DNA from: Lachnospiraceae bacterium
GTDB taxonomy: Bacteria > Bacillota > Clostridia > Lachnospirales > Lachnospiraceae
Reading direction: 5' to 3'
Assembly (NCBI GenBank): GCA_017622845.1
Contig: JAGAQJ010000050.1
Coordinates: 118,028-182,027 of the forward strand
Length of the DNA stretch: 64,000 nucleotides
Shown in pieces: positions 5,235 through 9,790 of this stretch; position 1 is the stretch's first letter; each line of letters begins with the position of its first letter. The position numbers were made by a program, and so were the translations under genes. Under the pieces are notes generated by a model. It ran no database searches. It was not told the DNA's origin and worked only from the letters and a program-made list of their open reading frames with translations.

Positions 5235-5429
5235 CTATGCAAGCTCCGCAATCTTTGTCATCAATGCATCAATATCCAGTCCGTGAACCATTGCTGCTTC
5301 TTCTAAAGATTCTCCCTGTGCGGAAGGGCAGCCGAGGCAGTGCATGCCTGCGTCCATAAGTACCGGCGCAATATCCGGATTGGTCCTTAGTATTTCACCG
5401 ATTGTCATATCCTTGGTTATCTCTGCCAT
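5235..5429 (-). CDS. DUF1858 redox-disulfide domain protein
   Basis: A 64-residue single-domain protein, [19 protein letters not shown] and onward. AGGAGG lies eight bases upstream of this ATG but only two bases from an in-frame ATG two codons earlier, so the shorter start is chosen. The fold is the small helical DUF1858 domain with 'T--DMTI-EIL---P' at the start and [17 protein letters not shown] in the middle. The CxxC (HCLGC) is the conserved thiol pair. DUF1858 domains are often found with hybrid cluster proteins and fermentation enzymes and are thought to be redox-active, but no biochemical role is established. It points away from the pyruvate formate-lyase genes and shares their upstream spacer, so a divergent, jointly regulated promoter region is possible. 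Confidence 0.8.
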
Positions 5430-5868
5430 TTTCATTTCCTCCTTTTATCCTGATAATATACTATTGTGTCTGAATTATGCTGTTTTATCCGCTGACATCA
5501 TTAATTACTATAATATATTTTTTTCATTTAATCAAGTCCTATCATTTTGATGCTTGCCACAAACGCAGCAGCCAATATAACCCACTGTAACTAACCTTAT
5601 GTCCGGCATTTAATACTAAGATGAGAACGAAGTAAATTTATGATTCCGTTTTTCTTTTGATATAATTAACAAAATTTTCATAAATTTTTACGTTCTGTAC
5701 ATGAAAAAGTACAAAGTTTAGTGTTGACGTGTATACAAAGTTGAGGATATAATACAGTTATGAATGTTAATCGATTTCATGGTATTTTCGTGACGCATTC
5801 TGATTTGAGTAACTAGCGGTGCTACTGCCGCATATTAAATTTAAATTATATTTAGGAGGCTTTGCAAA
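5430..5868. other. Divergent regulatory spacer between the DUF1858 gene and pyruvate formate-lyase
   Basis: No gene is visible. It contains the pfl promoter (5724-5753), a short inverted repeat GTACATGAAAAAGTAC (near 5697-5712), a weak match to a Rex half-site (TTAACAA near 5667) and a leader of about 110 bases with a small hairpin around GCGGTGCTACTGCCGC. Confidence 0.5.
5724..5753 (+). promoter_or_regulatory. Promoter of the split pyruvate formate-lyase operon
   Basis: TTGACG at 5724-5729 and a perfect TATAAT at 5748-5753 separated by 18 bases. Transcription would begin near 5760 and give a leader of about 110 bases ending in AGGAGG before the ATG at 5869. Confidence 0.75.
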
Positions 5869-7908
5869 ATGAGACCAGAATGGAAAGATTTTGTAGGTGG
5901 CAAATGGGAAAGCGAAATTAACGTGCGTGACTTCATTCAGAAGAACTTCACACCATATGACGGTGATGAGTCTTTCTTAGCAGGACCTACACAGAACACA
6001 AAGGATTTATGGCAGATGGTTCTTGACCTTCAGAAGAAGGAAAGAGAAGCCGGCGGTGTGCTTGATATGGACACAAAGGTTATCTCTACAATTACTTCTC
6101 ATGGTCCCGGATACCTTGACAAGAGCAAGGAGACAATCGTTGGTTTCCAGACAGACAAGCCTTTCAAGCGTTCTTTACAGCCATACGGCGGTATCAGAAT
6201 GGCAGAGAAAGCCTGCTCAGACAACGGTTATGAAGTAGATCCTGAAATCAGCGAGTTCTTCTCAACACACAGAAAAACACACAATGCCGGCTGCTTTGAC
6301 GCTTACAATCAGGAGATGAGAGCATGCCGTTCATCACACATTATTACAGGTCTTCCTGATGCTTACGGACGCGGACGTATCATCGGCGACTACAGACGTG
6401 TTGCCCTCTACGGTATCGACAGACTGATCGAGGATAAGCAGGCTCAGAAGGATTCTACAGGACGTGTTATGACAGATGATGTTATCCGTCTTCGTGAGGA
6501 GCTTTCAGAGCAGATGACTGCTCTTAAGATGATGAAGGAGATGGCTGCATCTTATGGCTGCGATATCTCTAAGCCTGCTACAAACGTACAGGAAGCTATT
6601 CAGGCTACATATTTCGGATATTTATGTGCAGTAAAGGAGCAGAACGGTGCAGCAATGTCACTTGGACGTACTTCTACTTTCCTTGACTGCTACGCTCAGA
6701 GAGACTTAAAGAACGGAACCTTCACAGAGGAGCAGATTCAGGAGTTCGTTGACCACTTCATTATGAAGCTTCGCTGCGTTAAGTTCGCTCGTACACCGGA
6801 ATATAACCAGATTTTCGCCGGCGATCCTGTATGGGTTACAGAGTCACTTGGCGGTGTCGGTGTTGACGGACGTCCATTAGTAACAAAGATGTCATTCCGT
6901 TACTTAAATACATTGACAAACCTTGGACCTTCACCGGAGCCAAACTTAACAGTTCTTTGGTCTACAAGACTTCCTGAGGCTTGGAAGAGATACTGTGCAA
7001 AGATGTCTATCCAGACTTCTTCTATCCAGTACGAGAACGATGACCTTATGAGAGTTACACATGGTGATGACTATGGTATCGCATGCTGCGTATCTTCAAT
7101 GGTTATCGGTAAGGAAATGCAGTTCTTCGGCGCTCGTGCTAACTTAGCTAAGTGCTTACTCTACGCTTTAAACGGCGGTATAGACGAGGTTACAAAGAAG
7201 CAGGTTGGTCCGAAGTATCGTCCTGTAACAGGCGATGTGCTTGATTATGATGATGTTATGAGCAAGTTCATGGATATGATGGAGTGGCAGGCAGATGTAT
7301 ATGTTAATACACTGAACATTATCCATTACATGCATGACAAGTACTGCTATGAGAGAGCAGAGATGGCTCTTCATGACAGAGACGTTAAGAGATACTTTGC
7401 TACAGGTGTTGCAGGTCTTTCTATCGTTGCTGACTCATTATCAGCTATTAAGTACGCTCAGGTTAAGCCTATCCGTGACGAGGACGGCGTTATCGTTGAC
7501 TTCGAGACAACAGGCGACTTCCCTAAGTATGGTAATGATGACGACCGTGTAGACTTAATTGCTCAGGATATCGTTCATAAGTTCATGACAGCTGTAAGAA
7601 GACATCATACCTACAGAAACGGCATTCCTACAACTTCTATCCTTACCATTACTTCTAACGTAACATATGGTAAGGCTACAGGCAACACACCTGACGGACG
7701 TAAGAAGGGACAGCCTTTCGCTCCTGGCGCTAACCCAATGCACGGACGTGATACTCATGGTGCAGTAGCATCTCTGTCTTCTGTATCTAAGCTTCCGTTC
7801 AAGGATGCTCAGGACGGTATCTCAAATACCTTTACAATTATTCCTAACGCACTTGGTAAGGAAGCAAAGGTCTTCTCCGGTGACATTGAGCTTGATTTAA
7901 ATAACTAA
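5869..7908 (+). CDS. pflB: Pyruvate formate-lyase catalytic chain lacking the glycyl-radical domain
   Basis: A 679-residue enzyme body that converts pyruvate and CoA to acetyl-CoA and formate in the cytoplasm. Family hallmarks are clear: [18 protein letters not shown], the adjacent active-site cysteines in [10 protein letters not shown] (Cys406-Cys407, equivalent to E. coli Cys418-419), and the late [23 protein letters not shown]. Full-length relatives are about 750-760 residues and end in a radical domain. This chain stops just after [14 protein letters not shown], so the radical loop is absent and is encoded by the gene at 8230-8472. The start has AGGAGG about nine bases upstream. Codon choice is very uniform, as in highly expressed genes. 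The activating enzyme (pflA) is not adjacent and not in the window. A simple frameshift is unlikely because an 82-base spacer with a stem-loop and another gene separate the two parts. Confidence 0.93.
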
Positions 7909-7930
7909 TTCATTTTACTTGCAATAATTT

Positions 7931-7965
7931 CCGGAAGCCGCGAGGTTTTGCTTTGCGGCTTCCGG
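7931..7965 (+). promoter_or_regulatory. Intercistronic stem-loop after the PFL catalytic chain
   Basis: CCGGAAGCCGC (7931-7941) pairs perfectly with GCGGCTTCCGG (7955-7965) around a 13-base loop. It is not followed by a T-run, so it is more likely an mRNA processing or 3'-stabilising element than a full terminator. It would let the catalytic chain and the small downstream proteins be made in different amounts from one transcript. Confidence 0.6.
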
Positions 7966-7990
7966 ATAATAGAGAGGAATAGGTGTATTT

Positions 7991-8200
7991 ATGGATGAAA
8001 AATCAATGATTGATGACCTTGTATCGCAGCTTGATTCCGGTTTTTCCGGCAATAAGGCCGTCGGACATTTCAATGTAGATGTCAATGAGGACGCTTCCAC
8101 AAAAGAAATCCAGACGCTTGGATGTACAGACTGTTCCAGTAATCCGATGGCATGCAGTGTTCCCACACTTCATGAAGGATTAGATGATAATAATCAATAA
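7991..8200 (+). CDS. Small cysteine-containing protein resembling the N-terminal half of the glycyl-radical chain
   Basis: A 69-residue protein set between the two parts of pyruvate formate-lyase. Residues 8-33 ([20 protein letters not shown] then NVDVN) align by eye with the start of the separate radical chain ([20 protein letters not shown] then NV). The radical loop RVSGY is missing; instead the protein continues into [19 protein letters not shown] with Cys45, Cys48 and Cys55 in a CxxC-x6-C arrangement. I do not recognise a named family. It may be a duplicated radical domain remodelled as a placeholder, stabiliser or metal/thiol-binding companion of the catalytic chain; this is inference. 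The ribosome site (AGGTG) is weaker than that of the flanking genes. The gene lies 82 bases after the catalytic chain and 29 bases before the radical chain, so co-transcription is very likely. Confidence 0.75.
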
Positions 8201-8229
8201 TTGAAATAATTTTTAGGAGGTATATCACA

Positions 8230-8472
8230 ATGGCAGACAACAAGACACAGGTTGATAACTTAGTATCTTTATTAGACGGTTATGCTACAAAGGGTGGTCA
8301 TCACCTTAATGTTAACGTATTGAACAGAGAGACTTTATTAGACGCTCAGGCTCATCCTGAGAACTATCCTCAGTTAACTATCCGTGTATCCGGATACGCT
8401 GTTAACTTCATTAAGTTAACACCGGAGCAGCAGGCTGACGTTATCTCTCGTACATTCCATGAGGCTATCTAA
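8230..8472 (+). CDS. grcA: Stand-alone glycyl-radical subunit of pyruvate formate-lyase
   Basis: An 80-residue protein consisting only of the PFL radical domain. [20 protein letters not shown] is followed by [20 protein letters not shown] and a C-terminal [14 protein letters not shown]. Gly55 in RVSGY is the residue that carries the radical after activation by the SAM-dependent activase. Joined to the end of the 679-residue chain, it completes a canonical PFL with no overlap, so it is an obligate subunit rather than a spare copy. E. coli GrcA/YfiD is a comparable stand-alone radical domain, but there it backs up a complete PFL. A strong AGGAGG precedes the ATG and a terminator follows directly. 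The symbol is given by similarity only. Confidence 0.9.
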
Positions 8473-8484
8473 TTGATAAAGTGC

Positions 8485-8520
8485 AAAGCCCTGAGAAGAT
8501 TTCTCAGGGCTTTGTTTTTG
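8485..8520 (+). terminator. Terminator of the pyruvate formate-lyase operon
   Basis: AAAGCCCTGAGAA pairs with TTCTCAGGGCTTT across a short loop, followed by GTTTTTGTTT. It lies 12 bases after the stop of the radical subunit. Confidence 0.92.
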
Positions 8521-8603: not shown

Positions 8604-9041
8604 TTAGATATTTGTCTTACCGTATTGGTCTGCCTGCAACCGATACATTTCTGCATAGATTCCGTTTTGCTGCATTAACTCATCATGCGCTCCGACTTCT
8701 GCCGCTTTCCCGTCCTCAATAACGATAATCTCATCACAGGTCTTTGCAAGTGCAAGACGGTGTGATATGTAAATTACTGTCTGCTCCTGTACCAACCTGT
8801 CAAATCCCCTGTAGATATCACGTTAATCCACCAGCCCGTTTATCCGGATTTCCCTTACATAAGGCATATCCTTTGTCAGACTCTCATAATACTTTTTCCT
8901 GCGGATTACCGACGGCATCTCATCCATCTGCATCTACGCGCTTTTCTTTTTGTAATGGGAGCTGACAAAGTTATTCAGTACAAGCAACACGAGAAAGCAC
9001 AGCGCTATCCCAATCCGCAGTCTGAGCAGCAGTACAAACAT
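8604..9041 (-). pseudogene. Decayed ABC exporter (membrane-domain fragment joined to the end of an ATPase domain)
   Basis: Reading leftwards from an ATG at 9041, one frame gives a hydrophobic stretch (MFVLLLRLRIGIALCFLVLL), a stop, then EMPSVIRRKKYYESLTKDMP and YVREIRINGLVD, a second stop, and then DIYRGFDRLVQEQTVIYISH, RLALAKTCDEIIVIEDGKAA and VGAHDEL. The first parts are typical of the membrane domain of peptide-type ABC exporters. The last is the D-loop and H-loop end of an ATPase domain (ISHR). The Walker A region and most of both domains are missing. Two in-frame stops and an internal deletion show that this is a dead gene. A 63-residue ORF at its 3' end is only the surviving ATPase tail. 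Confidence 0.8.
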
Positions 9042-9046
9042 GCTGC

Positions 9047-9790
9047 CTAAAGCGACAGCGTGGCCTCCAACTGCTGAAATTGGGCAAAATACATATCATA
9101 CTGCTTTAAATCCGTCAAAGAATTGAAAAGCTCAAGCACAAGACAGTTAAACGTAATGCTGCCAGACAAATACATCGTAAAATTACCAACAGACACGGTT
9201 CCTGTCATGGTGCAGTAAATAAGATAGCCATATGTAATCATCTGCTGAAGCAGACCGAACAGCATGTACGCCATCTTGTTTTTGCACAAAAAGCGGTTCT
9301 TTGTCCTCTCATACTCATTCACCTGCTCTGCTTCTTTCTTGTATTTTCCCAAAATCCAATCTGCCATAGAAAATGTCCGCAGCTCCTTGGCATACTTTGG
9401 TGTCTCAAATATACTCTTGATGTATGCCCTCCTGCGTTCCGCCTCCGCCTTGCTGAGGTCTTCATTAATTATTTTTTTCTTGTTACAGGCATTGAAAAAA
9501 AGATTCAGGAAAGACAGCAACAGATAGACAAGACAAATCCGGTAATCAAAAAACAGAATCACGGAAACCAACAAAGCGGCTGATACAAGACGCCCGATAT
9601 TCATGGTGGTGACCGGAATGATACCTGCAAACCCGTAAGCATTGATATACCGGTCTGCTTTTTGCCGCAAATCCAAAAACTCCAATAAGACGAGAAGGGT
9701 CTGAAACAGCTCAGCCAAAAGCAGCGTAACAATGTATTTTTTCTCCAGTCTGTATACAAGACGAAATAGATATCGGATTCCATGAAACAT
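9047..9790 (-). pseudogene. Truncated ABC exporter membrane domain
   Basis: A 247-residue hydrophobic protein with several membrane segments and the ABC-exporter motif KSIFETPKYAKELRTFSMADWI. It stops at QQLEATLSL, where an ATP-binding domain would normally begin, so it lacks the ATPase half. About 60 residues also seem to be missing after residue 40. The next piece downstream belongs to a second exporter that is plainly broken, so this is probably the remains of a two-gene heterodimeric exporter that has collapsed by deletion. It could still be translated, but transport without an ATPase is not expected. Confidence 0.65.

Follow-up and report, generated by a model that had tools for sequence, protein, structure and literature searches.

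We found that the pyruvate formate-lyase (PFL) of this Lachnospiraceae bacterium is encoded by two genes, one for a 679-aa catalytic chain that lacks the radical domain (hereafter N) and one for an 80-aa chain that carries it (R), and that split enzymes of this kind are accompanied by a short cysteine element (Cys element), borne either by a small protein, X, encoded between N and R, or by a tail on N itself. As judged from their sequences, N and R very probably form a working PFL. The full statement, a split PFL whose empty radical-domain site would be filled by the Cys element as a stand-in, is the best explanation that we can offer, and we regard its being right or wrong as evenly balanced. 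In anaerobes, PFL is one of the main routes by which pyruvate is converted to formate and acetyl-CoA; the enzyme of the textbooks is a single chain that is irreversibly cut by oxygen.

Two chains complementary over pyruvate formate-lyase

The locus was analyzed within a stretch of 64,000 nucleotides (the window). N is encoded at 5869-7908 (+) and has an adjacent cysteine pair, Cys406-Cys407, in common with E. coli PflB (PDB 1h16; TIGR01255), in which the catalytic residues are C418/C419 and G734 (PMC12338860, available part). N alone scores 1095.5 bits with the TIGR01255 profile (cut-off 994.2), and its match covers only positions 2-665 of 744; R, encoded 321 bases further on at 8230-8472 (+) and bearing the radical loop RVSGY with Gly55, covers positions 662-743. 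On the E. coli structure, N aligns with residues 10-680 and R with residues 677-758, and the two chains are thus complementary. Taken together, they pass the curated PFL cut-off and contain both the adjacent cysteine pair and the glycyl radical loop, but on two genes instead of a single polypeptide. R also matches residues 67-126 of YfiD (6owr) and exceeds the curated cut-off of NF038360, “autonomous glycyl radical cofactor GrcA3” (160.8 versus 158 bits).

An earlier sequence-only reading of this stretch had described a PFL split into two chains, a 679-residue one ending where the radical domain should begin and a separate RVSGY gene 321 bases on, and all of this agrees with the profile and structure alignments. 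Its two-component description holds for N and R, and overlooked the third conserved component, X or the tail on N, as well as the second R-like gene described below.

That a glycyl radical can be supplied in trans to a PFL truncated ahead of its radical domain is established (PMC8683613, available part), which is why we consider N plus R very likely to work as an enzyme. According to the same part of that source, an artificially split system, tPFL:truncYfiD, had an apparent kcat of 204 per s versus 105 for PFL once activated, with 2.7 uM of radical installed versus 15.9-17.2 uM for the wild-type systems; the truncated parts were activated more poorly, and their binding was too weak to be measured by calorimetry (tPFL with YfiD; cPFL with truncYfiD).

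A promoter-like site, TTGACG-18-TATAAT, lies 5' of N at 5724-5753 (+); it is a consensus match only (11/12), one of 7 such sites seen in the region versus 7.8 expected by chance in the scan. An intrinsic-terminator-like site with a 15-pair stem followed by a T run lies 3' of R at 8483-8515 (+), in a region with 3 such sites versus 2.1 by chance in the scan against shuffles. Around the locus, a small protein with the hybrid-cluster-protein-associated redox disulfide domain (TIGR03980, DUF1858) is encoded upstream of N at 5235-5435 (-), and the short frames at 8604-9790 (-), as read from the frames alone, resemble fragments of a single ABC transporter and may belong to a gene in decay.

R as a probable obligatory radical subunit

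The genome of this bacterium (3.6 Mb, 76 contigs, 95.3% complete) contains a single PF02901 match, namely N, and a single TIGR01255 match; a further PFL was not found in it, although the missing few percent could hide one. PF01228, the glycyl radical domain, matches at four places, which are the end of N, R itself, a second R-like protein and a weak place on contig C68 (22.3 bits) within a 736-residue frame that is probably NrdD. Only one activating enzyme exceeds the PflA cut-off, and as it sits on another contig (C49), a PflA beside the operon was rejected as a candidate.

That R is obligatory, as the sequence-only reading had proposed, agrees with these single matches and with the absence of an intact PFL (at E 1e-150) from 51 of the 54 split genomes described below; the complete PFL elsewhere in the genome that would have spoken against the proposal was looked for and not found. 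The name GrcA3 implies a spare part, yet the examined genomes mostly have no intact PFL to repair, and R, while passing the GrcA3 cut-off, stands beside no full-length PFL in its own genome or in those 51. We therefore read R, from its sequence and its setting, as best described as an obligatory and presumably exchangeable radical subunit. The accompanying statement that known stand-alone domains repair an intact enzyme broadly holds for GrcA. Formate is reportedly still produced by E. coli that has GrcA together with full-length PflB G734A (PMC12338860, available part).

The split form is widespread

In a sample of 150 genomes of the family, which is associated with the gut, 117 bear a PFL (TIGR01255 match at E 1e-150 or better), and the split form is present in 54 of these. 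We assigned the classes from profile end points (124 rows for the 117 genomes), obtaining 51 genomes with split PFL only, 56 with intact PFL only, 3 with both (G085, G119, G132) and 7 with partial chains placed in neither class (G034, G042, G060, G061, G089, G128, G129). Split chains also occur in families f8, f11 and f22 of an order-wide sample (196 genomes), among the matches listed, and five genomes outside the order have a split PFL in a class sample of 109, in which intact ones were not counted.

The gene order was read from an X-profile scan of genome contigs (473 relatives), from which 80 loci were kept; most of these are titled Lachnospiraceae, and one Roseburia, four Acetatifactor and one Eisenbergiella are included. 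Many of the loci read in this study are metagenome assemblies. The order N-X-R on one strand is kept in 77/77 loci holding all three genes, so that the arrangement does not arise by chance; the incomplete loci lack N (L140, L166) or R (L202), each at a contig end. The earlier reading had called for a survey of related genomes, which shows an identical boundary for 138 distinct N chains. Within the window, N and R share a reading frame, as they would if a sequencing error or a recent mutation had broken one gene, but this has a negligible chance of being right and an assembly artefact that resequencing would mend is ruled out, because the split occurs in 54 of 117 PFL-bearing genomes with the same boundary in all 138 chains, 12 stops (including N's own) separate N from R in their frame, the two share a phase at just 24 of 59 loci, and X and R are conserved.

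A third gene carries a module related to R and a cysteine tail

X, encoded at 7991-8200 (+), is a 69-aa protein composed of a helix-strand module related to that of R, followed by a tail with Cys45, Cys48 and Cys55. It has no family match in NCBIfam and Pfam at E 1 or in PHROGs at E 0.01, and no PDB chain matches it at E 10. Aligned with the module of R by hhalign, X gives a probability of 95%, an E of 3.9e-8 and a score of 43.3 over 30 columns, whereas the best of 200 column-shuffled controls scores 20.4 and none (0/200) reaches the real score. On this profile evidence, the two helix-strand modules are homologous. X thus shares the N-terminal module of the glycyl radical domain (PF01228), and it lacks the radical loop RVSGY as well as the Pfam match.

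The residues D15, G25, H26, N28, C48, A54, C55, P58, T59 and G63 are invariant in 117 distinct X; Cys45 is replaced by Ser in 7 of them, and most have three cysteines. Exceptions are found in a wider set, with the X of L260 and L265 ending after CxxC, without the second half of the motif, and that of L296 having Asn at position 48. The pN/pS of X is 0.25 overall, 0.27 in the module and 0.16 in the tail (81 sequences; a rough ratio, as synonymous change is near saturation), and both Cys codons are in use at the invariant Cys positions; on these two grounds, X as a chance frame was rejected. Among relatives, X is more variable than N or R. We also considered X as a radical domain in which Cys exactly replaces the Gly and dropped this idea, as the spacing varies among relatives; in the window, N28 to C55 spans 27 residues in X and N27 to G55 spans 28 in R.

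Between N and X, a 17-pair RNA hairpin is predicted at 7930-7966 (+) (-33.7 kcal/mol, z -5.39 versus 200 shuffles), which may control how much N is made relative to X and R. In relatives, 31 of 69 N-X spacers fold below -20 kcal/mol, a count taken without control on spacers that differ in sequence.

A gene that we call X2, on contig C63 of the same genome (L308, 3678-3926, -), encodes a protein whose helix-strand beginning is similar and whose tail, YHHGRCDVGSPWA, is invariant. It has no NCBIfam or Pfam family match. Among the matches listed, those above 75 bits occur in 17 of the 150 family genomes, at places unlinked to PFL; X is present as well in 16 of these genomes, and none of the 17 is intact-only.

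The Cys element occurs in cis or in trans

In most members, the Cys element follows the pattern C-x(4-7)-[AS]C-x-[VI]-P-[TN]. Having left out 7 loci in which N is absent and the open-ended locus L103, we examined the part of N beyond residue 664 in 150 split loci; removal of 12 repeats gave the 138 distinct chains. For 110 of these, X lies alongside and the N tail has no Cys; for 23, the tail has at least two Cys and no X lies alongside; the remaining 5 (G002, G130, G282, G297, G334) have neither locally and an X-like gene elsewhere in the genome. Tails on N include CGNQACNIPNIMESID, CGDMACKVPTLHKGIDD and CPDEACRIPNLMEGLD; about half of them (12/23) resemble the element more loosely, either as the CACCEPN type (L255, L256, L261, L263, L264, L268) or otherwise (L262, L266, L270, L271, L359, L360). 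The tail form has no docking part, whereas separate X carries the helix-strand module of the R type; no PDB match was found for the one cis tail searched.

Note that X was called in the genome scan above 50 bits, because weaker matches mostly reflect the module as it occurs in R or in intact PFLs, and that for genomes with X beside N, further X are covered by the genome-wide matches alone. The weak X of G130 (32.7 bits) was accepted from its sequence, which reads GHINVV...MACGVPT, and L295, one of the five chains lacking a local element, carries a lone Cys directly behind the barrel. The split PFL loci from other orders obey the same cis-or-trans rule (5/5), and the 54 split genomes of the family divide into 33 with a separate X and 21 with a tail on N.

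Intact enzymes give a different picture. No X above 50 bits was found in the 56 intact-only genomes, among the matches listed, and among 47 distinct intact PFLs (48 loci read), the segment between the barrel end and the strand has no Cys in 44, one in L101 and L349, and three in L111. Overall, in these sequences, the Cys element goes with the split state and not with PFL in general, and we consider it highly likely to be a genuine part of split PFLs.

Probable history of the split and re-fusion

We placed 132 N-region rows in a tree (quick method, SH-aLRT support, midpoint root used for drawing only), which included 15 of the 80 X-scan loci; L304 and L340 were left out as repeats, cores below 640 residues were dropped, and rows L290 and L305 represent one gene. 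A single group, supported at 99, unites 90 rows, namely the 85/85 split rows, L111 and four nested intact PFLs; many inner branches are weak, 43 of 128 being open. This grouping is consistent with a split that arose once, a Cys element that switched repeatedly between being a tail and having a gene of its own, and chains that fused again on at least two occasions, a direction of events that we infer, given a root chosen for drawing and the weak inner branches.

The four nested intact PFLs have no X, among the matches listed, and no Cys linker, and are apparently re-fused. L111 (L340 in the repeat; genome G096) is a PFL made as one chain, in which a Cys-rich insert, TCGCEEVTCAVDAND, sits precisely where the barrel joins the radical domain, and is a natural fusion of N, the Cys element and R. 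In four further loci (L126, L136, L137, L138), the N-X spacer contains what appears to be a degenerate repeat of N's 3' end in another frame, which suggests a past duplication at the split site.

Possible role of the Cys element

We propose that N would provide the barrel, the substrate site and the thiyl-radical cysteines, and that R would dock non-covalently in the place of the C-terminal domain of an ordinary PFL, with PflA, encoded on another contig, installing the radical on Gly55 of R. While R is absent or cut by oxygen, X or the tail would fill the vacant radical-domain site of N, bringing its cysteines near Cys406-Cys407, perhaps in a reversible disulfide that lasts until new R arrives, and would yield when fresh R docks. 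The sequences themselves show the split and its conservation, the module common to R and X and the cis-or-trans rule; complex formation, the site bound, the cysteine chemistry and the exchange are what we infer. Such a stand-in is the simplest account of the Cys element, although we rate its chance of being correct as slightly short of even.

In its more specific form, which we hold tentatively, a single site would have two alternative partners, the activating R and a cysteine dummy (X or tail) that protects the empty enzyme. With similar reserve, this dummy would be a component that goes with the split, has moved repeatedly between tail and gene, and is lost or reduced upon re-fusion. Because the tail on N and R share one N, the stand-in model must invoke a movement of the tail. 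The explanation is also weakened by the X of L260, L265 and L296 and by the looser tails, which depart from the motif, by the low score of the X of G130, by the greater variability of X relative to N and R, and by the poor activation and weak binding of the truncated parts in PMC8683613.

The sequence-only reading had proposed that the split serves oxygen tolerance, only the cheap radical subunit having to be replaced after a cut by oxygen. This is a real but somewhat less than even possibility. The same cost argument has been made for YfiD (PMC8683613, available part), and the genome itself encodes the second R-like protein (L001, 1540-1779, contig C55; 79 aa), unlinked to the locus and behind a Crp-family regulator. 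A regulator of that family is near 5 of the 20 unlinked R places examined, this genome included (L001, L232-L251). Against this stand the split genomes without a second R, such as G196 and G206, each with one R place among the matches listed, and the at least two lineages that seem to be re-fused. The commonest surroundings shared by unlinked R genes resemble sporulation and pnp genes and may reflect a common chromosomal position; an assignment of function from the neighbors was dropped, as these vary. Oxygen tolerance may be the reason for the split and not an alternative mechanism, and it could hold together with the stand-in.

It is unlikely that the Cys element is a regulatory accessory comparable to the small subunits of benzylsuccinate synthase, which would bind metal or an Fe-S centre on the periphery of N and tune thiyl-radical formation. 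Small Cys-bearing accessory subunits do occur in other glycyl radical enzymes, BSS-beta and BSS-gamma among them, and most X have three cysteines; these subunits are peripheral HiPIP-like [4Fe-4S] proteins (PMC12590467, available part), whereas X has two or three Cys on a module resembling the radical domain. With two Cys invariant in the 117 distinct X, and CxxC alone in two proteins, the cysteines are too few for one [4Fe-4S] cluster per X chain, so that X falls outside the HiPIP-like subunits on this count. The presence of R's module in X, which no PDB chain matched, and the tie of the element to the split state also speak against such a regulator.

We give a similarly low weight to the Cys element as an adaptor, one that would recruit R or PflA to N and aid activation without filling the site. 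Split partners may dock weakly, as the truncated parts did in calorimetry, and the N-terminal half of YfiD helped binding (PMC8683613, available part); an element that accompanies the split would suit this role. However, the conserved cysteines would be left unexplained, and X has the module of R itself, which suggests competition for one site.

Relation to known systems and implications

E. coli PflB is one chain, whereas the present system consists of two chains and the Cys element. YfiD/GrcA and Y06I of phage T4 deliver a glycyl radical in trans (PMC8683613, available part) and occur alongside a full-length PFL; in the present genome, N lacks a radical domain of its own and the search for an intact PFL found none. 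Two PDB chains named “Formate acetyltransferase”, 38LA and 38LB (687 and 739 residues), match N and end without a radical domain, 38LA being either native or a construct; 38LB continues past the barrel, the visible part of its tail holding CDMC. No R-like chain from these two entries was detected at E 0.001.

The split itself is probably known to others, because these two N-type chains are in the PDB and NCBI names the R family GrcA3. The earlier reading could not say whether the arrangement had been described: no paper on it was found, although the name and the two structures already exist. In the literature searched, which covered few subscription papers, we found no description of the three-part system with its cis-or-trans rule, and the available parts of PMC12288474, PMC11528403 and PMC13252398 do not describe the split arrangement.

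Present names, a “truncated” PFL and a “spare part” GrcA3, would hide a two-chain form that is found in 54 of 117 sampled PFL-bearing genomes. The cis-or-trans rule makes it testable what must cover the radical site when the radical carrier is detachable and, if X is indeed a dummy for R, it would offer a tool for studying radical-domain exchange and the recovery from oxygen.
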